DNA from: Actinomycetota bacterium
GTDB taxonomy: Bacteria > Actinomycetota > Acidimicrobiia > Acidimicrobiales > Ilumatobacteraceae
Direction: 5' to 3'
NCBI GenBank assembly: GCA_016213625.1
Contig: JACQZZ010000003.1
Location: forward strand, 1 to 64,000
DNA length: 64,000 nt
The notes beneath the pieces are model-generated. The model saw only the letters and a list, made by a program, of their open reading frames with translations, was not told the origin of the DNA and made no database searches. This document shows positions 6,001 to 20,299 of this stretch, piece by piece. Numbering within the stretch: the first letter of the stretch is position 1; every line of letters starts with the position of its first letter. A program made the translations under genes and the position numbers.

Positions 6001-6318
6001 ATGGATACCAACACTCAGAAGAAGGACCGGGGCTTCACCCTCGTCGAACTTCTCATCGTCATCGTCATCCTCGGCATTCTTGCCACTGTCACCGTGTTCG
6101 CCGTCCGCGGCATCACCGACAAGGGCCAGGAGAACAGCTGCGCCGTGGAGAAGCGGGCCATCGAGACCGCGTTCGAGGCGTACTTCGCCGACACCGGTGC
6201 CGACGCTGCCAGCCTGGCCGACCTCACCCCCGGCTACCTGAAGGACAACCCTTCCGCTCGCTGGACCTTCACCGCTGGCTCGCCCCCGAGCATCGTCGGT
6301 GCGGGCGACTGCGTCTGA
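6001..6318 (+). CDS. pilA: Type IV major pilin-like prepilin
   Basis: 105 residues. The class III prepilin signal is textbook: an 11-residue positively charged leader (MDTNTQKKDRG), cleavage before Phe12, and Glu at +5 in FTLVELLIVIVILGILATV. The hydrophobic N-terminal helix then leads into a small globular domain. Cys47 and Cys104 could form the C-terminal disulphide loop typical of pilins. The ATG has GGGAGGAA upstream. A strong hairpin with a T-rich tail follows the gene (6347-6383), so it is probably expressed at higher level than the minor pilins, as expected for the main fibre subunit. Processing would be by the peptidase at 14082. Confidence 0.92.
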   Translation: MDTNTQKKDRGFTLVELLIVIVILGILATVTVFAVRGITDKGQENSCAVEKRAIETAFEAYFADTGADAASLADLTPGYLKDNPSARWTFTAGSPPSIVGAGDCV

Positions 6319-6509: not shown

Positions 6510-6989
6510 ATGGGCCTCAGGCTTGAACCACAACAGATCGAGGAACCGGCCGACGCGTCTCGTCGCGACGCCGGCTACAGCCTCACCGAGGTCGTCGTCG
6601 CCGTGTTGCTGATGTCGATCGCGGTGGTGCCGATCATCCTCGCGGCGGGCGTCAGCGTGCGCACCAGCTCGCAGTCACGCACCCTCGCCCGTGTGGAGAC
6701 GGTGTTGGCCAACGCCGCCGACCGCGTGAACCGCGCCCCCGAGGGGTGCGACTACAAGGTCTACGTCGAGGCCGCGGCGCTGGCAGAGGGTTGGAACCCG
6801 ACCCAGGCGACGCTCTCGTACAAGTACTACACACCGGCCGCGACTGCGGCCACCGAGGGAACGTGGACCGCGGGCGCTTGCCCCGGCGGTGTGCGGACCG
6901 ACGGTCTCGTGCAGATGGTCACCATCACGGTGGCCGGCCCCGATGGCAAGACCCTTCGATCGATCCAGGTGGTGAAGAGTGATGTCTGA
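6510..6989 (+). CDS. Minor prepilin, PilV/GspI-like
   Basis: 159 residues. The leader of 22 residues ends in DAG, followed by YSLTEVVVAVLLMSIAVVPI, a class III prepilin signal with Glu at +5 and a long hydrophobic helix. The ATG at 6510 has GGGAG nine bases upstream. The remainder is a small domain with a Cys pair (GCDYKVY, GACPGG). The stop overlaps the next gene by eight bases, so the three minor pilin genes look translationally coupled. Minor pilins of this type prime pilus assembly at the tip. The upstream gap 6319-6509 holds the terminator hairpin and otherwise nothing I recognise. Confidence 0.85.
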   Translation: MGLRLEPQQIEEPADASRRDAGYSLTEVVVAVLLMSIAVVPIILAAGVSVRTSSQSRTLARVETVLANAADRVNRAPEGCDYKVYVEAAALAEGWNPTQATLSYKYYTPAATAATEGTWTAGACPGGVRTDGLVQMVTITVAGPDGKTLRSIQVVKSDV

Positions 6990-9846
6990 GCAACAGCGCC
7001 GCAACGCCCGTCAGGCCCGTCGCGACGAGCGTCGCGCCCGACGCGCCCAGCACCCCGACTCGGGCATGACCCTGCCCGAACTCCTCATCAGCCTGATGGT
7101 GACGGGCACGTTGGTCGCGGCCATGGCCGTGAGCACGGCCGTCATCCTGCGACAGGCCGACAACAGCGAGGGTCGGCTGAACAACACCCGATCCGAGCAG
7201 AGCGTCGGTCTGTGGTTGCCCGCCGACCTGGCCTCGGCTGAGGGTGTGAGCACCAAGCCCGACGCGTCGCCGTGCGGATGGTCGGATCCGGTGGAGGGCA
7301 TCACCGCCCCCGGGCCCTGCCCGAGTGACGTCAACGTCGGCGGCTCGAATGCGCTGATGTTGCAGTGGGCCGGCTACACCGCCGGTGCCACCGATGCCAT
7401 CCCGACGCTCACCACCGTGTCGTATCGCTACGTGGAGATCGACGGTGAGTTCCACATCATCCGCGTGGCCTGCCTGTCCATCGGCGGCGGTGCCCCGGTG
7501 TGCGATCAACTGACGCTCCTCCACAACGTCGAAGCCCCGCCGGAGGGTGTGCCGTGGATCCCCGGCACCACTCGCCCCACCTGGGTGATGCTCGTCGCGC
7601 TGGCGCTCGACCCCGCCGCTCCCGACGAGGGATCCGGCGTGGCCGGCAGCGACGACCCGACCTACCACATCAAGAACGGTCGCCGAGTGACGGTCACCAT
7701 CAACGGTGGCGGCGACATCTCCGGGCTCGGTGGTGGTCAGGACAAGATCACCCTCAGCGCCGGCGGCGTGGAACGCGACCCCGACCTGAGCACCACGAAC
7801 ATCAACGTCGCACCCACCTTCTCGGCCACGCGCTCGCGCTGCGGCGGCAACTTCGGCATGCTCGTCGACACGTCGGGCTCCATCGGCAGCACGAACATGG
7901 CCAGCGTTCGCGATGGCATCACCCAGTTCGTGAACTCGTTCGCCGGAACCCCCATCAAGCTGCAGGTGGTTCGGTTCAGCTCCACCGCCACCACGCTCGG
8001 TGCCGGCGCCGGCTGGAGCCGCTACTACGACATGCTCGTGGAGGCCGATGTCGCCGACCTGAAGGCGCAGGTGGCCACCCTCACCTCGAACGGCAGCACC
8101 AACTACGAGGACGCGCTGTTCCGCATGTTCATGAACAGCGACGGCACCACCCAGCCGGTGCTGCCCGACACGTTGATCTTCTTCACCGACGGCATGCCCA
8201 CCTACAACCGGTTGAACGCGTCGTCGGCGACGGCTCCGGCGGTGGCGCACCCCGACGACATCGGGTTCCCGTCATCGGGAGGATCTTCGTACAGCCAGTT
8301 GGCGTGGAACCGGGCGAACCGCATCGCCCGGCAATTCGATGTCGACGTCGATCGGTTCATCGGCGTGTACGTGGGCAGCGACGTGAACGGCCAGTCGACC
8401 TGGAGCACCCAGGGTGCCGGCTACCACCTCGAGAACTTCCAGAAGGGCTACCACCTCTTGTGGGAGCGGGCACACAGCATCACCGACCCAGAGCGTGGCT
8501 ACCACCAGACGTGGGAGTACGCGGCATCCGGTCTCAAGTACCAGTACGCCAGCTCGAACATGACCTACAAGTACGCGACGACGGGTGTCCGGTACGAGAA
8601 GCTGACTTCGGGCACCTGGGGAACGATCTCGGCCTCCACCTATGTCGGTTCGAACCTCTCGCCAGGAAGTGGCGACGGGTATCGGGCAGTCGTCACGGGA
8701 ACGCTCGGAGGCTGGACGAACTTCAGTGGTCGCAGTACGTACGACAAGAGCAACGAGGTCGCGGGACCTGGTGACGGCTTCCAAGCCACCACGTCGGGGC
8801 CGAGTTCGTTCAAGGACACCACGAAGGCGTACTACGACATCAACAACACGATCGCCGGTCAGAACGACGGCTACCGAGTCTCCGTGTCGGGCACCTTGGG
8901 CAACTGGACCGCGACGACCGAGGCCTACTACCTGACGAGCAACACGAAGTCAGACAGCAGCGACGGGTATCGCACGACCAAGTCGTACAGCGCTCCGTTC
9001 GACTCCTGGGAGAGCACCACCCCGGCGCTGTTCGAGGCGAACAACACCACCGCAGACGACACTGATGGCTGGCGAGCAACCGTGAGTGGCTCCGCTCCCT
9101 ACAACTACTGGGAGTCGGTGACCCAGGCCGAGTACGACAGCGGCAACATCGACGCCGGCGAGTCCGACGGCTGGCGAGTCACCAACGTCTACTCCAGCCC
9201 GTTCAGCGTCTGGGAACCGGCCACCGAGTTGGAGTACACCAGTGGCAACACCAGCTGGGGCAACGGCGACGGTTGGGACGCGACGAAGGTCTACGTCGAG
9301 CCGTTCACGTTCCACGAGAACGTCACCACCAGCACGGTGTTGAACACCGAGATCCTCTCGCGCATCATCACCGTGGCCGACCCGGTGCCGGCCGTGCCCA
9401 CGGGTGGCCCGTACACCAACGCGGCGGTGGCCGACCTCTACGTGCTGCCCAACTGGAGCCAGTTCGCCGGCGCCATCAACGCGGTGGCACTCGCCGAGTG
9501 CGGCGGCACGGTGACCCTGCAGACCCGAGTGGGCGCGGCGGCGGCGGCCGACCCGTTCACGTACCAGAACTCGCAGGACCTCACGATCGCCACCACCAGC
9601 CAGCAGTACCGCAGTGGCACGTTCGACTTCGACATGCCCGACGGTCAGCCGGTCACGGTCGACATCTCGCCGGTCGACCTCTCGAACCTGGCCCGCTACG
9701 CACCGGTGAGCTGGGCGTGCCGAGCGAACGGCCTCGACTACCCGTTCACCCAGACCGTCCTCGACGGTTCCGAGTGGAGCAAGATCACGCTCACGGTGGC
9801 TCCGAACACCGCCGTGTCGTGCATCCAGACGGTGAGGATCCGATGA
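6982..9846 (+). CDS. Modular minor pilin fused to a von Willebrand factor A domain with tandem repeats
   Basis: 954 residues. A 28-residue Arg-rich leader ends in DSG, then MTLPELLISLMVTGTLVAAM, a prepilin signal with Glu at +5. A PilW-like region follows to about residue 285. A VWA domain begins at GGNFGMLVDTSGS with an intact MIDAS: DTSGS (Asp296), Thr373 in STNYEDAL and Asp403 in FFTDGMPT. After the VWA strand RFIGVYVGSDV the domain is interrupted by about 330 residues containing tandem repeats (residues about 535-775). It resumes at LYVLPNWSQFAGAINAVAL, followed by a C-terminal beta-rich domain. It is probably a pilus-tip adhesin. GTG 6979 is an alternative start. The stop overlaps the next ATG (ATGA). 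Confidence 0.88.
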   Translation: MSEQQRRNARQARRDERRARRAQHPDSGMTLPELLISLMVTGTLVAAMAVSTAVILRQADNSEGRLNNTRSEQSVGLWLPADLASAEGVSTKPDASPCGWSDPVEGITAPGPCPSDVNVGGSNALMLQWAGYTAGATDAIPTLTTVSYRYVEIDGEFHIIRVACLSIGGGAPVCDQLTLLHNVEAPPEGVPWIPGTTRPTWVMLVALALDPAAPDEGSGVAGSDDPTYHIKNGRRVTVTINGGGDISGLGGGQDKITLSAGGVERDPDLSTTNINVAPTFSATRSRCGGNFGMLVDTSGSIGSTNMASVRDGITQFVNSFAGTPIKLQVVRFSSTATTLGAGAGWSRYYDMLVEADVADLKAQVATLTSNGSTNYEDALFRMFMNSDGTTQPVLPDTLIFFTDGMPTYNRLNASSATAPAVAHPDDIGFPSSGGSSYSQLAWNRANRIARQFDVDVDRFIGVYVGSDVNGQSTWSTQGAGYHLENFQKGYHLLWERAHSITDPERGYHQTWEYAASGLKYQYASSNMTYKYATTGVRYEKLTSGTWGTISASTYVGSNLSPGSGDGYRAVVTGTLGGWTNFSGRSTYDKSNEVAGPGDGFQATTSGPSSFKDTTKAYYDINNTIAGQNDGYRVSVSGTLGNWTATTEAYYLTSNTKSDSSDGYRTTKSYSAPFDSWESTTPALFEANNTTADDTDGWRATVSGSAPYNYWESVTQAEYDSGNIDAGESDGWRVTNVYSSPFSVWEPATELEYTSGNTSWGNGDGWDATKVYVEPFTFHENVTTSTVLNTEILSRIITVADPVPAVPTGGPYTNAAVADLYVLPNWSQFAGAINAVALAECGGTVTLQTRVGAAAAADPFTYQNSQDLTIATTSQQYRSGTFDFDMPDGQPVTVDISPVDLSNLARYAPVSWACRANGLDYPFTQTVLDGSEWSKITLTVAPNTAVSCIQTVRIR
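8584..9320 (+). repeat. About seven tandem protein repeats of 31-34 residues inside the VWA pilin
   Basis: Successive units end in a shared DG[YWF]-type motif: GSGDGYRA, GPGDGFQA, GQNDGYRV, SSDGYRT, TDGWRA, ESDGWRV, GDGWDA. Each has an aromatic-rich middle, for example PFDSWESTTPALFEANNT, PYNYWESVTQAEYDSGN, PFSVWEPATELEYTSGNT. The later units resemble each other more closely (PF..WE..T....Y..GN), the earlier ones are more diverged. The array lies between two parts of the VWA fold, where a surface loop would be. I do not recognise the repeat family. Confidence 0.8.
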
Positions 9847-11333
9847 TCGCCCGATGGCGCTCCGCTCGATCGCCGCGTCGCGCCGACCTCCAACCCGAGG
9901 CCGGTCGCGACGAGGGCATGGCCATGGTGATGTGCATGGTCTTCATCATCATCGGCATGATGGTGATCAGCCCCCTGCTGGGGTATGCGGCCACCGTGCT
10001 GCACAGCAGTCGAACGCAGACGCTGAAGACCGACCGCGCCGAAGCCGCCCGTGGTGCGCTGCGCCTGGCGATGGCCGATCCGAAGGCGCTGTACGACACC
10101 TGTTCACCGTCTGGTCTCACGACCTCGGTGACGTTGCTGAAGTCGAGCGAACTCGACGTGCCGATCACCACCAAGTGCACTACGGTCAAGAGCGCCGCCG
10201 AGCTCAACGACACCGACCTGCGCATCGCCATGACCCTCACCCAGGTGGGCGCCGTGGCGCCGGTGGGTACCGTCGGTTCGGTGTACGCCGGGTCCGGTCA
10301 GGCGGACACGCTGGCGTGGTCGGCGGGCGCCACCACCGCGAGCACAGGCGGCCAGGTGTGGTTGCCGCAGTTGGCGGCACACGCCCTGAACCACCCGGCC
10401 AATGCCGGCTACATGATGCCGGCGTGGGCTGGCTCGTGTCGCGTCTTCTTCCCCGGCACCTACAACGCTGCGGTGACGATCAACGACTCCGTTCCCACGT
10501 TCTTCACCTCGGGTATCTACTACTTCGAGGACGCGGTGACCTTCGGCAGCGACGCCGCCGTCGTGATCGGCGAGGGCGCCACCGAGGGCTGCACCGACGA
10601 CCAGGACGCTGCCTACAACGCGATCAACGCGCCGCTCAACCACAACATCTCCGGCCTCGGCGCCACGTTCGTGTTCGGCAAGACCGGGCGCCTCGTCGTC
10701 ACCGACACCGGTGCGGCCGGGGCGGGCCCCAGCGTCGTGTTCAACAGTCGCCTCGTCGACCCCACCGACGTCGGGTCGGCCGCTTCCAAGAACGTCTCGA
10801 TCATCTCGGTGAACGGCGTCTATTCCTCGCCGAGCACCAACCTCGATCTCGACCTCCCGGGTCAACTGCACGTGCCGAAGTCGATGCTGCTCGCCGGTGC
10901 CACCCCCGTGGACGCCGCGACCGGTGAGTACGTGCCGTCGACACTCGTCCCCACGGTGCTGCCGGCGCTGCCGGAGAACCCGATCATCGACATCCAGTTC
11001 GCCGCCGGGTCCGGTGGCAAGGTGTTCGTCCCCGGGTACATCTCGGTGCCGCAGGGTCGCATCAACATCGCCGTCGCTCCCGGCATGGGCGCCAACAAGA
11101 GCGTCGAACTGGTGGGCGGTGTGCTCGCGGCGACGTTCACCCAGACCGTCGATCAGCCGGCGATCACCAGCCTGGGCATGATCAACCGCATCGTGCAGAA
11201 GACGTTCAAGCTGGTGGCGACCACCGATCAGTCGACCCCGCGGGTCTCGTCGGTCGCGGTCGTGCAGATCAACGACTACGGCGAGTTCGCCATCAACTCC
11301 TGGGTCACCGAGAGCTCCGGCTCCACGCCGTAA
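9843..11333 (+). CDS. PilX-like pilus-associated membrane protein
   Basis: 496 residues, with the start overlapping the stop of the VWA pilin (ATGA). The N-terminus resembles the PilX class: a short charged region ending DEG, then MAMVMCMVFIIIGMMVISPL, a hydrophobic helix that could be cut after the Gly although Glu +5 is absent. The rest is an extracytoplasmic beta-rich domain rich in Thr, Gly and Val with some Cys, without a motif I recognise. As last gene of the minor pilin operon it probably belongs to the tip complex with the VWA pilin. It is longer than classical PilX (under 200 residues). Confidence 0.75.
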   Translation: MIARWRSARSPRRADLQPEAGRDEGMAMVMCMVFIIIGMMVISPLLGYAATVLHSSRTQTLKTDRAEAARGALRLAMADPKALYDTCSPSGLTTSVTLLKSSELDVPITTKCTTVKSAAELNDTDLRIAMTLTQVGAVAPVGTVGSVYAGSGQADTLAWSAGATTASTGGQVWLPQLAAHALNHPANAGYMMPAWAGSCRVFFPGTYNAAVTINDSVPTFFTSGIYYFEDAVTFGSDAAVVIGEGATEGCTDDQDAAYNAINAPLNHNISGLGATFVFGKTGRLVVTDTGAAGAGPSVVFNSRLVDPTDVGSAASKNVSIISVNGVYSSPSTNLDLDLPGQLHVPKSMLLAGATPVDAATGEYVPSTLVPTVLPALPENPIIDIQFAAGSGGKVFVPGYISVPQGRINIAVAPGMGANKSVELVGGVLAATFTQTVDQPAITSLGMINRIVQKTFKLVATTDQSTPRVSSVAVVQINDYGEFAINSWVTESSGSTP

Positions 11334-12877: not shown

Positions 12878-14029
12878 TCAGACACCCACGAAGGTGCCGG
12901 CACCGGTGCTGGCGCTCTGGCCGGCTTCCACGGTGGCCTGCGCCTGCAGCTGCGAGCGCATGGTGGCCGCCTGGGCCAGGATCTCCTTCGGGTACTGGCT
13001 CACTTCGGCGGCGACGTCGAAGCTCAGGATGCCACTGGACACCAGACGAGCGAGGTCCATCTCGATGGTCTGCATGCCTTCCTGCTGGCCCGAGATCATC
13101 GCATTGCGCAGCTGACGGCTCTTGCCCTCACGCACCAGGTTGCGCACGGCGTCGTTGGCCATGAGCACCTCGTAGGCGGCCACACGACCGCCGCCTTCAG
13201 CGGGGAGCAGACGCTGGCTGATGACGCCCTGCAGGGTGCCCGCGAGCTGGATCTGGATCTGGTCGCGGCGCTCGGCGGGGAACACGTCGACGATGCGGTC
13301 GAGTGCCTGTGAGGCGTCGTTCGTGTGCAGCGTGGCGAACACGAGGTGACCGGTCTCGGCCAGCGTGAGCGTGATCGAGATCGAGTCGAGGTCGCGCATT
13401 TCACCCAGCAACACGACGTCGGGGTCTTCACGCAGTGCGCTGCGCAGACCGTCGAGGAAGTTGTTCACGTCGGTGCCCACTTCGCGCTGGTTGACCATCG
13501 CGACCTTGTGGTGGTGCAGGTATTCGATGGGGTCCTCGATGGTGAGGATGTGCACCGGCTTGGTCTCGTTGATGCGGTCGATCATCGCCGCCAGGGTGGT
13601 GCTCTTACCGGAGCCGGTGGGGCCCACGACGAGCACGAGGCCGTACGGGCGAGCGAGCAGTTCGTTGGCGGCCCACGGAGCGCCGAGCTCCTCGAGCGAC
13701 CGCACGCGGAAGGGAATGACACGAAGGGCGAGCGCATAGCTGTTGCGCTGCTTGTAGGCGTTGGCGCGGAATCGGCCGATGGAGTCGAGGCCGAACGAGA
13801 AGTCGACCTGCGAGTTGTGCTCGAGTTCGTGCTGCTGTTCGAGGGTGAGCAACGAGCGCACCATCCGCTCGGTGTCCTCCGTCTCGAGCAGGCCCACGCC
13901 CTCGAACGGCACCAGCACGCCGTCGCGGCGAGCGGTGGCCGGACGGCCCACGGTGAGGTGCAAGTCGCTGGCCCCGGCGGCCACGGTGGCCTGCAGCAAG
14001 GTGACCAACATCGGGTCTGGATTGAACAT
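12878..14029 (-). CDS. pilT: Type IV pilus retraction ATPase PilT
   Basis: 383 residues, close to the usual PilT length. The hexameric ATPase powers pilus retraction at the cytoplasmic face of the membrane. Visible motifs: N-terminal ASDLHLTVGRPATARRDG, Walker A GPTGSGKSTT (Lys142), Asp box with TIEDPIEYLH, Walker B LREDPDVVLLGEMRD, His box HLVFATLHTNDA, and the PilT-type AIRNLVREGK equivalent AVRNLVREGKSRQLRN. The gene is divergent from the prepilin peptidase gene (52-bp gap) and leads into the DUF429 gene. Confidence 0.95.
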   Translation of the reverse strand: MFNPDPMLVTLLQATVAAGASDLHLTVGRPATARRDGVLVPFEGVGLLETEDTERMVRSLLTLEQQHELEHNSQVDFSFGLDSIGRFRANAYKQRNSYALALRVIPFRVRSLEELGAPWAANELLARPYGLVLVVGPTGSGKSTTLAAMIDRINETKPVHILTIEDPIEYLHHHKVAMVNQREVGTDVNNFLDGLRSALREDPDVVLLGEMRDLDSISITLTLAETGHLVFATLHTNDASQALDRIVDVFPAERRDQIQIQLAGTLQGVISQRLLPAEGGGRVAAYEVLMANDAVRNLVREGKSRQLRNAMISGQQEGMQTIEMDLARLVSSGILSFDVAAEVSQYPKEILAQAATMRSQLQAQATVEAGQSASTGAGTFVGV

Positions 14030-14081
14030 GTGGGTAGCCTCCGTGTGTCCCGCCGCTCACCGCGTGCTGGATCCCTTGCGC

Positions 14082-14846
14082 ATGACGACTGTGATCTGTG
14101 CCCTGTACGGGCTTCTCATTGGTTCTTTCCTCACCGTGGTGGTGGACCGAGTGCCTCGTGGCGCCTCTGTCGTTTCCCCCGGATCGGAGTGTGGAAACTG
14201 CGGCTTGCGCCTCGGTGTCCGCGATCTCATTCCTGTGTTCAGTTGGCTGGCGCTGCGTGGAAAGTGTCGGCAGTGCCATACGAGTATCGGCACTGAACCG
14301 CTCGTGCTTGAGTTGTCAACGTCGTTTCTTTTCGGCCTCACTGCGTGGCACTTCGGCCTGTCGTGGCGCACCCCGGCGTTCTGCGTCCTGATGGCCGGCC
14401 TGGTGGCCCTGAGCTGGATCGATCTGAAGACCAAGCGCCTTCCCCGAGGCATCATCTACTGGACCGCGATCATCGGTGTGCCGCTGCTCTGCGTGGCGGC
14501 CCTGGTCGAGCACGAGCCGAAGCGGATGTGGATGATGGTGCTCGGCGCCGCCATCTCGCTGAGTGTGATGGCGTTCATCTACTGGGTCAGCCGGGGTGGC
14601 ATGGGCGACGGCGACGTGCGCCTGTCGCCGCTGCTCGGCGCGTACCTCGGCTTCCTGAATCCCGGTCTCGCGCTCGTGGGGCTGTTCTACGGGTTCCTCG
14701 TCGGTGCCCTCGTGGGCGTCGGGCTGATGATCACCAAGCGCGCCGGCCGGCGCACCGAAGTGCCCTTCGGCCCGTTCCTGGCCCTCGGCACCGTTCTGGC
14801 CATCTTCTTCGGCCAGGCCTACATCGACCTCCTCCTCGTCCGGTGA
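14082..14846 (+). CDS. pilD: Prepilin peptidase / N-methyltransferase (A24 family)
   Basis: 254 residues, a polytopic membrane protein. The cytoplasmic zinc-type loop has both Cys pairs (CGNCGLRLG ... GKCRQCH), as in bifunctional PilD that cuts prepilins and N-methylates them. The two catalytic Asp regions are WIDLKTKRLP and GGMGDGDVRLSPLLGA (GxGD type). About seven to eight hydrophobic segments are visible. I chose the ATG at 14082 because it gives the typical N-terminus running straight into the first membrane helix (YGLLIGSFLTVVVDRVPRG). It is convergent with the DUF559-like gene, separated by one copy of the palindrome. Confidence 0.93.
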   Translation: MTTVICALYGLLIGSFLTVVVDRVPRGASVVSPGSECGNCGLRLGVRDLIPVFSWLALRGKCRQCHTSIGTEPLVLELSTSFLFGLTAWHFGLSWRTPAFCVLMAGLVALSWIDLKTKRLPRGIIYWTAIIGVPLLCVAALVEHEPKRMWMMVLGAAISLSVMAFIYWVSRGGMGDGDVRLSPLLGAYLGFLNPGLALVGLFYGFLVGALVGVGLMITKRAGRRTEVPFGPFLALGTVLAIFFGQAYIDLLLVR

Positions 14847-14864
14847 CCCCACCACGCCGGTCCG

Positions 14865-14901
14865 GAATGCTCAGCGCCCGGCAGTCGGGCGTTCAGCATT
14901 C
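14865..14901. repeat. Palindromic repeat, copy 1 of 3
   Basis: Arms GAATGCTCAGCGCCCG (14865-14880) and CGGGCGTTCAGCATTC (14886-14901) match at 14 of 16 positions around a GCAGT loop. This copy overlaps the 3' end of the DUF559-like gene and encodes its last residues and stop codon. It lies 18 bases after the prepilin peptidase stop, so it may also act as a two-way terminator. Confidence 0.85.
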
Positions 14902-15857
14902 GGCGGTGCCGGGAGTTCGATCCCGAGATCGATGGCGCGTCGCCGCGCAATGCGCTCCACCGTTCGCCGAACGGTGGCATGTGACCCCGCAGCGTCCGCC
15001 CACCCCACGAAGGTCGTGTGCCACCCCTCCTCGGCCAACTGGTTCTCCCGCGCCTGGTCGAATGCCTCGGCACGGGGCCCTGTGTGCCACCGGCGGCTGT
15101 GGGCCTCGATGGCCATTTTCAACGACGGGATGGCGAGATCCACGCGGGCGACGAACGAACCATCCTCTCGCCGCACCTCGTGCTGGCGGACGACCGGCGG
15201 CAATATCGGCGACCGAACGCAGGCCTCGACCAGGCGTTCGAACCAGCTGTCGGGAACCCGTCCGCCGATGGTGCGACGTTCGAGATCGTCGGCCACGCGG
15301 CGGCGCCACGGTCCACGAGCGGGAAACCGGTCGACGGTGTGCACCAACCATTGGAGGTTGAAGCCTCGCCGCACGAAGTCGTCGACGGCGCGTTCGTATC
15401 GGTCCGGGTGCCAGCGAGCGATGTCGCAGAGCGTGCGGGCGAGGGTCGTGCAGCGGATGCCGTCGATGGTGAAGACGTCGTGGGTGAGGTCGTACTGGTC
15501 GATGGTCTGCGTCACCACGACGAGCGGTGACGCGCTGGAGGCACCCCGCCGACCCGCGACCCGCAACGCGTCGTCCGTGAAGCCGTCGATCCCGTGCAGG
15601 CGCGCGGCGGAGGCGGCGATGGCGAGTCGTTGATCGCCGCCCTCCAGTGTGGCGACGTACAGCGACTGCTCCCAGCTGGGCGGCATGCCGCGGATGCGCA
15701 GCACACCGGGTACGTCTTCCATCAGCACCCCGCGCGCGATGAGGCGGGCGATGGCGTTGCGTCCGAGTCCATGTTCGGCGGCCTGGCGGCGTGTCACGGC
15801 ACCGTGGCGAGAGGCTGCGAGCTCGCCCACGGCACCCAACGAGGTGCTCACAGGCAT
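14871..15857 (-). CDS. AbiEi-like winged-helix protein with C-terminal DUF559/Vsr-type nuclease fold
   Basis: 328 residues from the ATG at 15857. An upstream frame to 15941 is open, but its extra 28 codons come largely from a palindrome. Residues 1-60 form a winged-helix-like AbiEi-type domain (GAVTRRQAAEHGLGRNAIARLIARG). The C-terminal third looks like DUF559/Vsr-type PD-(D/E)XK nuclease: RVDLAIPSLKMAIEAHSRRWH, then ARENQLAEEGWHTTFVGW. Proteins of this build are frequent in actinobacteria and are often labelled type IV antitoxin-like. No toxin partner is adjacent. Its last residues and stop are encoded by palindrome copy 1, and copies 2 and 3 lie upstream. It interrupts the pilus locus. Confidence 0.75.
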   Translation of the reverse strand: MPVSTSLGAVGELAASRHGAVTRRQAAEHGLGRNAIARLIARGVLMEDVPGVLRIRGMPPSWEQSLYVATLEGGDQRLAIAASAARLHGIDGFTDDALRVAGRRGASSASPLVVVTQTIDQYDLTHDVFTIDGIRCTTLARTLCDIARWHPDRYERAVDDFVRRGFNLQWLVHTVDRFPARGPWRRRVADDLERRTIGGRVPDSWFERLVEACVRSPILPPVVRQHEVRREDGSFVARVDLAIPSLKMAIEAHSRRWHTGPRAEAFDQARENQLAEEGWHTTFVGWADAAGSHATVRRTVERIARRRAIDLGIELPAPPNAERPTAGR

Positions 15858-15906
15858 GCGAGCGGACACTATCGACGCAGCGGACGTCCCCAACCTGGCC
15901 CGCCCG

Positions 15907-15943
15907 GAATGGTCAGCGCCCGGCAGTCGGGCGCTCAGCATTC
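15907..15943. repeat. Palindromic repeat, copy 2 of 3
   Basis: Arms GAATGGTCAGCGCCCG (15907-15922) and CGGGCGCTCAGCATTC (15928-15943) around GCAGT, 14 of 16 paired. It lies 50 bases upstream of the DUF559-like start codon, in the position expected for the promoter of that gene, so a pure terminator role is unlikely. Confidence 0.85.
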
Positions 15944-15977
15944 GCGCACCACGGGGGCGTCACCGGGCCGAAAACCT

Positions 15978-16016
15978 TGAATGCTCAGCGCCCGATCGTC
16001 GGGCGCTGAGCATTCA
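15978..16016. repeat. Palindromic repeat, copy 3 of 3 (perfect)
   Basis: A perfect 18-bp inverted repeat (15978-15995 and 15999-16016, starting TGAATGCTCAGCGCCCGA) around TCG. It is the best-conserved copy and lies 21 bases after the pilC stop, so it could terminate the pilB-pilC transcript. Same sequence family as the copies at 14865 and 15907. Confidence 0.88.
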
Positions 16017-16036
16017 GAACTGACGGGAGCGGTGGG

Positions 16037-17248
16037 TCAGGCGGTGGCCTTGAGTCCGTTCATCACGCCGTACATGGCCTGCACGAGGGCGACGGCCACG
16101 AAGCCGACGATGACACCCACGAACACGATCATCAACGGCTCGAACATCGTGGTGAACTTCTTGATGCGGCTCTCGAGCTCGCGGTCGAAGTACAGGCTGG
16201 CCACTTCGAGCTGCTGGTCGAGCGTTCCGGTCTCTTCGCCGACCTTGAACATCTGGCGGGCGGCGCCGGGGAACAGCTCGGTGCGGGCGAGCGGCTTGGC
16301 GAAGCCGGCGCCTTCCATGATCTCCACCTGGGCCTCGGCGAGGCGCTCGCGGAACACGATGTTGCTCGTGGCCTCGGTGGTGGTCTTCATCGCATCGGGC
16401 AGCGGCACACCGGCCTTCACCATGGCGCCGAGGATGCGGCAGAAGCGCTCGAGAATGGAGTACTCGATGATGCCGCGCACCACCGGGAGCTTGAGCACGA
16501 GCCGGTCCTTGAACGCTCGACCTGTCTCGCTGCGGAACATCCACACCATCCAGGCCGTGAACAGACCGCCGATGCTGAACGGGATGTACCAGAGCGTGCT
16601 GAACAGGGTGGCCACGAACAGCAGCGCGCGAGTGGCGAAGGGCAGGTCGGCATTGAGCTCCTCGAACAACGGCTTGAACTGAGGCAGCACGTAACCGGCC
16701 AACACGGCCACGGTGAAGACGGCCAACACCATGACGACGCCCGGGTACGAGAGCGCGGAGATCACCTTCGACCGCGTCTCGAGCTCGCGCTCGAGGTAGC
16801 CGGCCAGGTTCTCCAGCGTCTCGTCGAGCTTGCCGGTGAGTTCCGCCGACCCGAGGATGCCGATGTAGTACTTCGGGAACGCTTCGGGGTGCTTGCTGGC
16901 GGCGCCGGAGAGCGTGCCGCCGTTGCGGATGTCCTCCACCATGTGCGAGATGGTGCGCTGCAGCGCGACGTCGGTGGTCTCGTCGCCGATGATCTCCATC
17001 GCCTCGGTGAGCGGGATACCGGCCTTCACGAAGACGGCCAGCTGACGCGTGAAGTGCATCAGCTCCTTCTTCTTCACCTTCTCCTTGGTGAGCTCGATGG
17101 AGAGCGCGCCGCGCTTCTCCTCGATCTTCACCGGGTAAAGGCTCTTGTCGAGCAGGTGTGCTCGAGCTTCGCCGATCGTGTCGGCCTTGGTGACGCCTTC
17201 GACCGACGTGCCGTTGGCGTCGATTGCGGCGTAGGCGAACCTGGGCAT
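16037..17248 (-). CDS. pilC: Type IV pilus inner-membrane platform protein PilC (T2SS F family)
   Basis: 403 residues, normal for PilC. Two homologous T2SSF units are visible, each with a soluble helical part followed by membrane helices: first FTRQLAVFVKAGIPLTEAMEI ... VVMVLAVFTVAVLAGYVLP, second RFCRILGAMVKAGVPLPDAM ... PLMIVFVGVIVGFVAVALV. The N-terminus (MPRFAYAAIDANGTSVEG) is typical of the family. PilC transmits PilB/PilT motion to the growing fibre. It starts 11 bases after the pilB stop, so the two are one operon. The perfect palindrome follows its stop. Confidence 0.95.
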   Translation of the reverse strand: MPRFAYAAIDANGTSVEGVTKADTIGEARAHLLDKSLYPVKIEEKRGALSIELTKEKVKKKELMHFTRQLAVFVKAGIPLTEAMEIIGDETTDVALQRTISHMVEDIRNGGTLSGAASKHPEAFPKYYIGILGSAELTGKLDETLENLAGYLERELETRSKVISALSYPGVVMVLAVFTVAVLAGYVLPQFKPLFEELNADLPFATRALLFVATLFSTLWYIPFSIGGLFTAWMVWMFRSETGRAFKDRLVLKLPVVRGIIEYSILERFCRILGAMVKAGVPLPDAMKTTTEATSNIVFRERLAEAQVEIMEGAGFAKPLARTELFPGAARQMFKVGEETGTLDQQLEVASLYFDRELESRIKKFTTMFEPLMIVFVGVIVGFVAVALVQAMYGVMNGLKATA

Positions 17249-17259
17249 GAGTGTGGCTC

Positions 17260-18999
17260 CTAGCTGGCGAAGAGGGTGCGGACGACTTCAGGGATGGTGG
17301 TCACGTCGTTCTCGACCAGGGCCATGGCTTCGCGCAGCATGGTGCGCATGCCCTGAGCGACGGCGAGTCGACGGAGTTCTTCGGTGGTGGCCCAACCGAC
17401 GATGAGGCGGCGGAGCTCGGGGGTGATGCGCAGCAGCTCGTACACGCCGATGCGGTCGCGGTAGCCGGTGCCGGCGCAGAAGTTGCAGCCGGCGCCGCGG
17501 TAGAAGGTGCTCTTCTCGCTGCCACCGCTGTGCTGGCGGAACACTGCCAGTTCGTCGGCACCGGGGGCGTACGGCTCCTTGCAGGAGTCGCACACTCGAC
17601 GGAGCAGACGCTGGCCGATGACACCCACCACCGACGAGGCGATGAGGAAGGCCTCGATGCCCATGTCGAGGAAGCGGTGCAGCGCGGCGACGGAGTCGGT
17701 GCCGTGCAGTGACGACAGCACGAGGTGACCGGTGAGTGCCGACTGCACGGCGATGCGTGCCGTGTCGGCGTCACGGATCTCACCCACGAGGATCACGTCG
17801 GGGTCCTGACGGAGGATGGCCTTGAGGCCGGTGGCGAACGTGAGGCCCGCCTGGTCGTTCGTCTGGATCTGGTTGATGCCGGGGAACACGTACTCCACCG
17901 GGTCTTCCACGGTGGTGATGTTCTTGCCCGCAGAGTTCACCTCGAGCAGCGACGCGTACAGCGTGGTGGTCTTACCGGCACCGGTGGGGCCGGCGCAGAT
18001 GACCATGCCGAACGGCGAGTGGATCATCTTCGAGTAGTGCAGGTACGTCTCGCGGGGAAAGCCCAACTCGCCGAGACCGATCATGGACCTCGACTTGTCG
18101 AGGATTCGCATGACGATCTTCTCGCCGAACACGGTGGCCACGCTGGCGACGCGGACGTCGACGTCCTTGCCGTCGATGGTGGTGGAGAATTGACCGTCCT
18201 GCGGCCGGCGCTTCTCCACGATGTTCATGCCGCTCATGATCTTCAAGCGGCTGGTGAGCGCGGCGTGCACGCCCTGGGGCAGCGAGAAGGTCTCCACGAG
18301 GTGACCGTCGATGCGGAACCGGACGCGCACCGAGTCGTCGAGCGGCTCGATGTGGATGTCACTCGTACGGTCGCGCATGGCCTGGCTGACGATGCGGTTC
18401 ACGAGCTGGATGACCGGCGCCTGGTCGTCGAGGCGCACTTCCGACGCCTGCGCGGCGATCTTCGCCTGATCGTCGGCCACGTCGAGCGATGCGACCAGTC
18501 GATGGATGTCGGCGTCGGCGCGGTACATCGTGTCGATGAACGTGTGCACCGTGGCCGGATCGGCGATGAAGTACTTGACCGGACGCTTGACCTCGGCCTC
18601 GATGGCTGCCTTGCGCGCCGGTGCCGGGTCGGTGAGCAGCACGATGACCGTGCCGTTTTCCTCGGCCACGGCCACGGCGCAGTGCTGGCGCACGAGTGCC
18701 TCGGGCAGCATGTTCTTGACCTCGTCGCTGACGACGATGCCCTTGGTGTCCACCGCCTGCAGGCCGGTCGCGGCCGACAACGCCAGCGCGGTCTCCGCGC
18801 GTCCGACGCTGAACCGACCCGTGACGAACTCGGCGAAGCTGAGCAGGTCACCGTTCGCATGGGCGAGTGCTTCCGCCATGTTCTCGGCCGACAGGAATCC
18901 GCCCTCGACGAGGGACTGTCCGGCCTTCAGACATTCAGCCGCGGACTCACCCTCGGGGGCCGAAACGCCTTGGTCCCTGGATCCTTTGAAAAGTGCCAT
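17260..18999 (-). CDS. pilB: Type IV pilus assembly ATPase PilB (GspE family)
   Basis: 579 residues from the ATG at 18999 (MALFKGSRDQG). Upstream in-frame codons overlap the coiled-coil gene region and are rejected. The N-terminal GspE_N-like domain spans about residues 20-170. The ATPase core has Walker A GPTGAGKTTT (Lys343), TVEDPVEYVFPGINQIQ, Walker B RQDPDVILVGEIRD and the His box HLVLSSLHGTDSV. A zinc tetracysteine site is present (RVCDSCKEPY ... GCNFCAGTGY). It powers pilus extension. The preceding coiled-coil gene ends 43 bases upstream, so all three genes may be cotranscribed. Confidence 0.95.
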   Translation of the reverse strand: MALFKGSRDQGVSAPEGESAAECLKAGQSLVEGGFLSAENMAEALAHANGDLLSFAEFVTGRFSVGRAETALALSAATGLQAVDTKGIVVSDEVKNMLPEALVRQHCAVAVAEENGTVIVLLTDPAPARKAAIEAEVKRPVKYFIADPATVHTFIDTMYRADADIHRLVASLDVADDQAKIAAQASEVRLDDQAPVIQLVNRIVSQAMRDRTSDIHIEPLDDSVRVRFRIDGHLVETFSLPQGVHAALTSRLKIMSGMNIVEKRRPQDGQFSTTIDGKDVDVRVASVATVFGEKIVMRILDKSRSMIGLGELGFPRETYLHYSKMIHSPFGMVICAGPTGAGKTTTLYASLLEVNSAGKNITTVEDPVEYVFPGINQIQTNDQAGLTFATGLKAILRQDPDVILVGEIRDADTARIAVQSALTGHLVLSSLHGTDSVAALHRFLDMGIEAFLIASSVVGVIGQRLLRRVCDSCKEPYAPGADELAVFRQHSGGSEKSTFYRGAGCNFCAGTGYRDRIGVYELLRITPELRRLIVGWATTEELRRLAVAQGMRTMLREAMALVENDVTTIPEVVRTLFAS

Positions 19000-19042
19000 G
19001 TTGCCCGTCTCCCGCCCGGGGGGCCTGCGTGCCAGCCTGTCG

Positions 19043-20299
19043 TCAGAACGACGACAGGCTCGGCTCCGATGAGTTGTCCGGGCTGCCGGTCGGCAGCGAT
19101 GAGTCGAGTGAGGTGTTCGCGCGACCTGCGCCGACGCCGCCGGCGCCCGCTTGCGGGTCGGACTTGCGGACGAACTGGTCGGGGTTGAGTTCGATGATGG
19201 CCCGCTCGAGCTCCTCGAGTCGCTCGAGCTGCACCGCAGCACTCACGTCCATCTCGTCGGCCAGTTGCGCTTCGATCTCGGCCATGCGCAGCGTGGCCTT
19301 GTCGATCTTCTCGTCCGTGTTCTGGGACAAGCGGTCGATCTCGATGCGCACGAGCATGGCTTCACCGACGGCGGCCGACAGCTGGTCGCGCACTTCCTGG
19401 ATGGCCTTCTCGTCGACCTTGCCGACCTGCTCGGCCAACGCGGCCAGGCGGTCGTCGTGCGAGTAGAGCGTGTTCTCGAGCTCCAGCATGCGCTGCGAGA
19501 GCGCCGCCATCGCGTCGTCGAAGCCGGCGCCGATGCGGCCGACCGTCGCCTCGAGGTGGGCGATCTTGGTGCCGTTGGTCTCGTTGATGCGATCTTCCAT
19601 CGCCAGCATGCGGTCGGTGACCTTGTGCTCGGTGAAGTCGATGCGTTGCGACATCATCTGCGTGTGCTCGGCCAACTGCCGCTGCACTTCAGGAGCGACG
19701 GTCTCGAGCGTGCTGCGCACGAAGTTCAACCGCTCCTCCACCGCGCTGGCGAGGGCCTGGTTGCCCTCGTCCATGCGCTGGGCGAGCGCGATGGTCGTGT
19801 CGTTCACGTGCTGCACCAGTGCAGAGGCCTGCTCGTCGAACCGCCGGGTGGCCTTGTGCAGGTCGTCGATGCGCGCATGCGCAGCGGCGCTCTGCTGGTC
19901 CATCTGGTCGCGAAGACTGGCGATCTCGTTGGCGTCGAAGCCACCTTCCGTGGCCGGCAGTTCCAGCATCCGGTTCTCCACCTCGGCGAGCCGACGGTGT
20001 TGGTGCTGGGCGAAATCCGCCAGCCGCTCCTCGAGCGCGTTCTGCAACGCCTTCTGGTAGGCCTCGGTGCTGTGCTGGCCCGATTCGAGCCGCTGAGTGA
20101 GCACCTGGAGCTGCTGGTTGAACTCGGCGCGCAGCTCCGAACGAGCTCCTTCCGCCTCTCGACGGATCGAGTCCATCTGGTGCGTCATGGTGGAGACGTA
20201 CTGGGTGAGCTGACGCTCGACGGCCGACGCGATGGTCGCGACCAGGACTTCCGCGGTCGCGGCCGAAATTCCGTTGGGGTTGGGTGTGGGGGTGCTCAT
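19043..20299 (-). CDS. Large coiled-coil protein upstream of pilB, function unknown
   Basis: 418 residues with hardly any hydrophobic segment. Nearly the whole length from residue 20 to 360 is helical with heptad-like patterns (VERQLTQYVSTMTHQMDSIR; LRIAMLELENTLYSHDDRL-type stretches). It ends in a disordered Gly/Ser/Asn tail (SSLPTGSPDNSSEPSLSSF). No catalytic motif. As first gene of the pilB-pilC unit it may scaffold or localise the pilus motor. Other readings (polar organiser, chromosome-associated coiled coil) are open. It resembles the coiled-coil protein at 5262 only in general character. Confidence 0.7.
   Translation of the reverse strand: MSTPTPNPNGISAATAEVLVATIASAVERQLTQYVSTMTHQMDSIRREAEGARSELRAEFNQQLQVLTQRLESGQHSTEAYQKALQNALEERLADFAQHQHRRLAEVENRMLELPATEGGFDANEIASLRDQMDQQSAAAHARIDDLHKATRRFDEQASALVQHVNDTTIALAQRMDEGNQALASAVEERLNFVRSTLETVAPEVQRQLAEHTQMMSQRIDFTEHKVTDRMLAMEDRINETNGTKIAHLEATVGRIGAGFDDAMAALSQRMLELENTLYSHDDRLAALAEQVGKVDEKAIQEVRDQLSAAVGEAMLVRIEIDRLSQNTDEKIDKATLRMAEIEAQLADEMDVSAAVQLERLEELERAIIELNPDQFVRKSDPQAGAGGVGAGRANTSLDSSLPTGSPDNSSEPSLSSF

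Follow-up and report, generated by a model that had tools for sequence, protein, structure and literature searches.

The VWA-bearing minor prepilin encoded in the window (the whole 64,000-nucleotide stretch of DNA analyzed here) carries two repeat arrays in the betaE-alpha6 loop of its VWA domain, and these arrays match each other in number of units and, in antiparallel order, in unit class. We consider it probable (about 0.7) that the insert projects from the MIDAS face as a hairpin arm, in which array 1 runs outward, array 2 runs back and the length is set by the number of units. On balance, and with modest confidence, we regard this as a new extendable arm, built from two unrelated arrays of one chain that are complementary unit for unit in antiparallel order and lengthen in step within one loop of the host domain of a type IV pilin. 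The source genome belongs to the class Acidimicrobiia, its closest named relatives being Ilumatobacteraceae/Acidimicrobiaceae metagenome bins, and the hosts of this surface-pilus protein are freshwater actinobacteria.

The protein comprises 954 residues and is encoded by an uninterrupted open reading frame on the + strand (6982–9846, ATG at 6982 and stop codon at 9844–9846). The class III prepilin leader (6982–7065, +), with cleavage expected after G28, between DSG and MTLPE, has the E5 and hydrophobic helix of modular type IV pilins, and its residues G28, L31 and E33 are unchanged across 30 homologues. A long helix (aa 31–85) is followed by a beta-rich pilin region, the VWA domain (aa 285–464 and 788–842) and a C-terminal beta region. 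The Pfam N_methyl match of the window protein is weak (E 0.015), with 17 of 18 family members matching at E 0.1 or better, and the VWA match lies above the curated cut-off. The first part of the VWA domain (aa 285–464; 7834–8373, +), recognized by invariant columns and by a VIA fold match, contains the MIDAS residues D296-x-S298-x-S300, T373 and D403, all invariant in 30 aligned homologues; the last part (aa 788–842; 9343–9507, +), which reads NTEILSRI...YVLPNWSQFAGAINAVALAECGG, was delimited by alignment, model and VIA. The first-pass annotation, which had proposed a prepilin with a VWA domain and an intact MIDAS in a single 954-residue protein, is thus borne out. Judged from its sequence, this protein belongs to the modular type IV pilins with a VWA domain (PilB-like), and its adhesive function would be metal-dependent. 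Most probably it serves as a minor pilin at the tip of the filament or close to it; the location at the tip, like the labels 'pilus tip' and 'binding surface' of that annotation, we infer rather than observe.

The gene lies among other type IV pilus genes, and this context, together with the leader and the VWA match, agrees with the modular pilin type suggested earlier. It is preceded by genes for a probable major pilin of 105 aa (6001–6318, +; N_methyl E 2.4e-10) and a PilV-position minor pilin of 159 aa (6510–6989, +; N_methyl at 20.7 bits, slightly below the cut-off). The gene that overlaps its stop codon (9843–11333, +) encodes a PilX-position, minor-pilin-like protein of 496 aa that has no Pfam match. 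ATPase and PilC genes are found nearby within 12878–19242, including that of a PilB-type extension ATPase (17260–19242, −; T2SSE and MshEN in Pfam). The order pilV, VWA pilin, pilX is kept in almost every related locus that has sufficient flanking sequence, with or without the insert. Two of these loci (L102:9828-11621 and L098:4421-6241) contain a second, insert-less VWA pilin cluster directly after the first, and the pilV-VWA-pilX set thus appears to have been duplicated in tandem there. The protein encoded at 14871–15941 (−), where the gene for the PilT-like ATPase lies on one side and that for PilC on the other, gives an antitoxin-like match to AbiEi_4 and a weak match to the MTES_1575 nuclease, and the same genome contains a second type IV filament cluster with a T2SSE ATPase and three N_methyl proteins (G000:C40:9845-22102).

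Alignment of 18 homologues places the insert (aa ~466–787; 8377–9342, +) between the VWA strand betaE (FIGVYVG) and the sequence ILSRI...YVLPNWSQF; it has no counterpart in the relatives L057, L058, L097 and L099. The spacing from betaE to the CGGT landmark is ~94–113 aa in the measured insert-less forms, ~160–250 aa in relatives with short inserts and ~300–660 aa in clearly repeat-bearing forms. The insert is joined to the VWA domain at both of its ends, and solved VWA domains align to the full-length model over aa ~285–840, across the insert, with VIA Z-scores of 17.6–20.3; the modeled VWA fold is therefore closed and complete around the insert (Z about 20). The earlier statement that the insert splits the VWA domain consequently holds for the sequence but not for the fold. 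By general VWA topology, the betaE-alpha6 loop faces the MIDAS side.

Array 1 (aa 480–542; 8419–8607, +) lies N-terminal to array 2 and was parsed, with support from predicted strands, into seven aromatic segments of 8–9 aa (GYHLENFQK, GYHLLWERA, HSITDPER, GYHQTWEYA, ASGLKYQYA, SSNMTYKYA and TTGVRYEKL). Array 2 (aa 546–775; 8617–9306, +) consists of seven Thr/Asn/Gly-rich units of 32–34 aa with the pattern W..(T/S)...Y...N......DG(Y/W)R, all recovered by the unit profile (E 1e-16 to 2e-7); three class A units with an SGTLG-like end are followed by four class B units with an x-P-F/Y end. The two arrays are linked by YEKLTSGTW (8593–8619, +), where the distal turn would be expected, since an aromatic-E/Q...W junction recurs at this point in the parsed relatives. 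The units of array 2 have diverged in DNA (median identity 42% for equal-length pairs), and for this reason no array was detected at the DNA level by Tandem Repeats Finder. About seven repeats ahead of the last VWA part had been described before, at 8584–9320; these repeats are real, but the insert starts at ~8377 and the shorter array 1 had been left out.

Both arrays were parsed in 18 non-redundant Acidimicrobiia relatives including the window protein, and the pieces were checked to concatenate to the protein. These related loci come from metagenome bins, the array-1 segmentation and class rules were set by hand after inspection, and the cleanly parsed set leaves out the diverged inserts L082, L086, L087 and L091–L095. 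The two counts are equal in 15 of the 18, over a range of 2 to 9 units: 2/2 in L088 and L102; 5/5 in L068, L075, L077, L080 and L085; 7/7 in the window protein, L066, L067 and L072; 8/8 in L069 and L071; and 9/9 in L073 and L083. When partners were shuffled, matches averaged 3.3 and reached a maximum of 11 in 200,000 trials. The mismatched proteins (array 1/array 2) are L084 (8/10), L079 (12/7) and L081 (10/11), and the last two contain near-identical copies, which are poorly handled by short-read assembly. The L081 gene extends over two overlapping open reading frames of 553 and 832 aa (L081:4995-8509), a frameshift in the bin that is either real or an assembly error. In L079 (6291–7298) and L083 (6288–7448), array 1 is made up of consecutive SFHYQR hexapeptides, about 10 and 7 copies respectively, some of them identical in DNA.

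The units of each array fall into two classes, namely GYH-type segments and segments of the SGLTY, NNVV or hexapeptide type in array 1, and units ending in xP-F/Y and units ending in SGTLG or similar in array 2. Read in reverse, the class string of array 1 is the same as that of array 2 in all 15 count-matched proteins of the 18, with strings such as AAABBBB (window), AAABBBBBB (L073), ABBBBBB (L072) and AAAAAAABB (L083); in L084 the strings AABABABB and AABABABABB differ by one extra AB pair. Shuffling gave a mean of 1.8 and a maximum of 9 antiparallel matches in 200,000 trials, and strings in parallel order fit only in the two n=2 cases, trivially. A first class rule misfiled segments starting with GS, GT or SS (string match 10 of 18) and was replaced by a single aromatic-His/Arg-start rule after the result had been seen; the count, length and contrast tests therefore outweigh the class-string count.

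Independent contrasts were calculated on a tree built from the pilin and VWA parts. Class alpha correlates with class B (r=0.989) and class beta with class A (r=0.808, or 0.994 without L079), and the cross-class contrasts are not significant (r about −0.23). By this measure, the link in count and class between the arrays survives phylogenetic correction. Within the genus, the length of array 1, for which no segment boundaries are used, follows the profile-counted number of array-2 units with r=0.98 and ~8 aa per unit. Similarity among copies was also compared between the arrays at the nucleotide level in 13 proteins, giving a mean r of 0.49 in antiparallel order versus 0.08 in parallel order; the combined P, about 6e-10 for all orders and 0.0017 for within-class shuffles, is not a strict probability because the proteins are related. 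In L073, for example, the most alike array-1 copies, 2/4 and 3/5, correspond to the most alike units, 8/6 (95% DNA identity) and 7/5 (75%). Equal counts alone would also fit two stacked modules of equal length, such as a solenoid with a wrapped strand, that co-vary without one-to-one antiparallel pairing, and the structure was read as secondary-structure strings, which would accommodate that arrangement as well. The reversal of class order between the arrays and the antiparallel mirroring of copy similarity argue against it, and we regard it as unlikely.

The AlphaFold2 model of the insert alone has a mean pLDDT of 89.7 (89.3–89.7 over five models) and a pTM of 0.57, a value that can be obtained for an elongated object and yet is a caution; AlphaFold2 can also over-regularize repeats. 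Array 1 is modeled as strand at insert residues 16–59 and 63–78, with pLDDT of about 89–95, and in the full-length model strands are predicted at aa 480–523, 527–531 and 534–542. Array 1 would thus be nearly one continuous strand of ~60 residues, unlike a compact meander with tight turns, and each array-2 unit in the insert-alone model is a strand, a short helix and a strand. The pairing of strands between the two arrays is suggested by the co-variation together with the predicted secondary-structure strings. A variable surface loop that is largely disordered or packs only loosely, with repeats gained and lost neutrally, would account for the Thr/Asn/Gly-rich units, their variable number and the recent near-identical copies in L079, L081 and L083. 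It is difficult to reconcile with the confidently modeled insert and with matching in count and class that persists after phylogenetic correction, and is very improbable. The description of the region as just a variable loop is accordingly not upheld in that form, array 2 looking like one half of a paired structure.

Searches with the insert revealed no known relative. Foldseek gave no match below E 1 in the PDB (best E 1.2) and a best E of 0.017 at a probability of 0.04 among the viral models of BFVD, and VIA found none with Z of 2 or more among Foldseek's 465 candidate chains. The Pfam, NCBIfam and PHROGs profiles gave no convincing match to the insert, at a sensitivity that a distant relation could escape, in line with the earlier remark that repeats of this kind within a VWA domain were unfamiliar. 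In Pfam up to E 10, the repeat produced solely matches under the curated cut-offs (best E 0.001, with a synthetic consensus), its profile had no match among PDB sequences, and tblastn of the insert had none in phage and plasmid records.

In the proposed hairpin arm, the chain would leave the VWA domain as one very long strand made of the n segments of array 1, each of 6–9 aa, turn at the recurring YExx..GxxW junction and return as the n strand-helix-strand units of ~33 aa of array 2, so that segment i from the base would pair with unit n+1−i. The value of n, from 2 to about 11, would determine how long the arm is; with a straight modeled strand, the arm of the window protein would measure as much as ~20 nm. 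Because a unit lacking its partner would leave a strand unpaired, a gain in either array would be accompanied by one in the other. Such an arm would most likely let the MIDAS adhesin reach further and, again most likely, offer its aromatic, His/Arg-rich side for contact with a ligand or surface. Alternatively, the arm could be real but mainly mechanical, its role being to gate or shield the MIDAS or to help sense force instead of contacting ligand all along the arm. Its exit through the MIDAS-side loop, expected from VWA topology, would suit this role, and mechanosensing is proposed for the VWA domain of PilY1 in the passages cited here (PMC13190605; PMC9210963). The insert-less relatives, however, retain the MIDAS and the same operon, and we give this alternative some, though limited, plausibility.

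The closest protein to the window pilin is Streptococcus sanguinis PilB, which likewise consists of a pilin module with a grafted VWA domain and MIDAS (PMC8179133; PDB 7b7p, 7ba2). In the portions of that report drawn on here, the PilB MIDAS is flanked by two protruding 'arms', as in RrgA; they are small, the second being a four-stranded sheet, and neither repeat arrays nor length variation is described (PMC8179133). The PilB VWA domain aligns to the window model with Z 18.8–19.0 over 201–206 residues. RrgA of Streptococcus pneumoniae, a VWA adhesin, shares the trait of arms beside the MIDAS (as cited in PMC8179133). The VWA parts of the sortase-pilus tip adhesins SpaC (Z 18.8) and PitA (Z 18.1) also align to the window model; these two adhesins and RrgA belong to sortase pili, whereas the window protein is of the type IV kind. 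To our knowledge, adhesins of the RrgA, SpaC and PitA type have no matched repeat arrays. The MIDAS-face betaE-alpha6 loop also bears an extra element, the alphaC helix, in collagen-binding integrin I domains, of which those of alpha1 and alpha2 can be aligned to the window VWA domain with Z about 18. Unlike the window insert, alphaC is a single short helix without repeats.

The closest idea is that of the periscope proteins (SasG, Rib and Sgo_0707), in which the number of repeats sets the length and reach of an elongated surface rod (PMC8201768). The account consulted describes in-line domain stalks with termini at opposite ends (PMC8201768), whereas the window rod would be a loop insertion with two arrays of equal number. 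Tandem repeats that vary between genomes are seen in array 2 within the genus, but inter-copy DNA identity is not high in the window array 2 (median 0.42), and the insert is not an in-line stalk with opposite poles. Paired arrays are described neither for PilB (PMC8179133) nor for the periscope proteins (PMC8201768) in the parts of these papers used here, and an architecture with matched repeat arrays was not described in the open-access literature searched. On the basis of the PilB and periscope comparisons, we therefore class the window protein among the VWA modular pilins, its arm being of a new kind. Although VWA pilins have been described before, our searches turned up no account of a rod lengthened by matched units in two arrays of different type. 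If the proposal is correct, a loop insertion can lengthen without separating its two ends, the relatives offer arms of graded natural length (n = 2 to 11) in which the effect of reach on pilus adhesion could be examined, and the insert provides a repeat scaffold that is new and follows a simple pairing code.

Among 395 Acidimicrobiia genomes, the unit profile matches solely the VWA pilin gene and its orthologues, in 6 genomes of 3 genera, and among 396 Actinomycetota genomes its matches are confined to the genus of the window. The gene is present in 14 of 15 genomes of that genus, the genome without it being only 63% complete. As had been anticipated, repeat number varies between species, with 2–11 array-2 units among relatives and 5 to 11 within the genus, and near-identical copies are restricted to some relatives such as L079, L081 and L083. 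The inserts of L089 (831–4091) and L090 (5007–8678) are diverged, their segments reading YHYxYxHx and their units being of the QYSAPF type, with rough counts, made by regular expression and eye only, of 6 versus 6 and 8–9 versus 10, respectively; the longer protein of this pair has about 1,220 aa.
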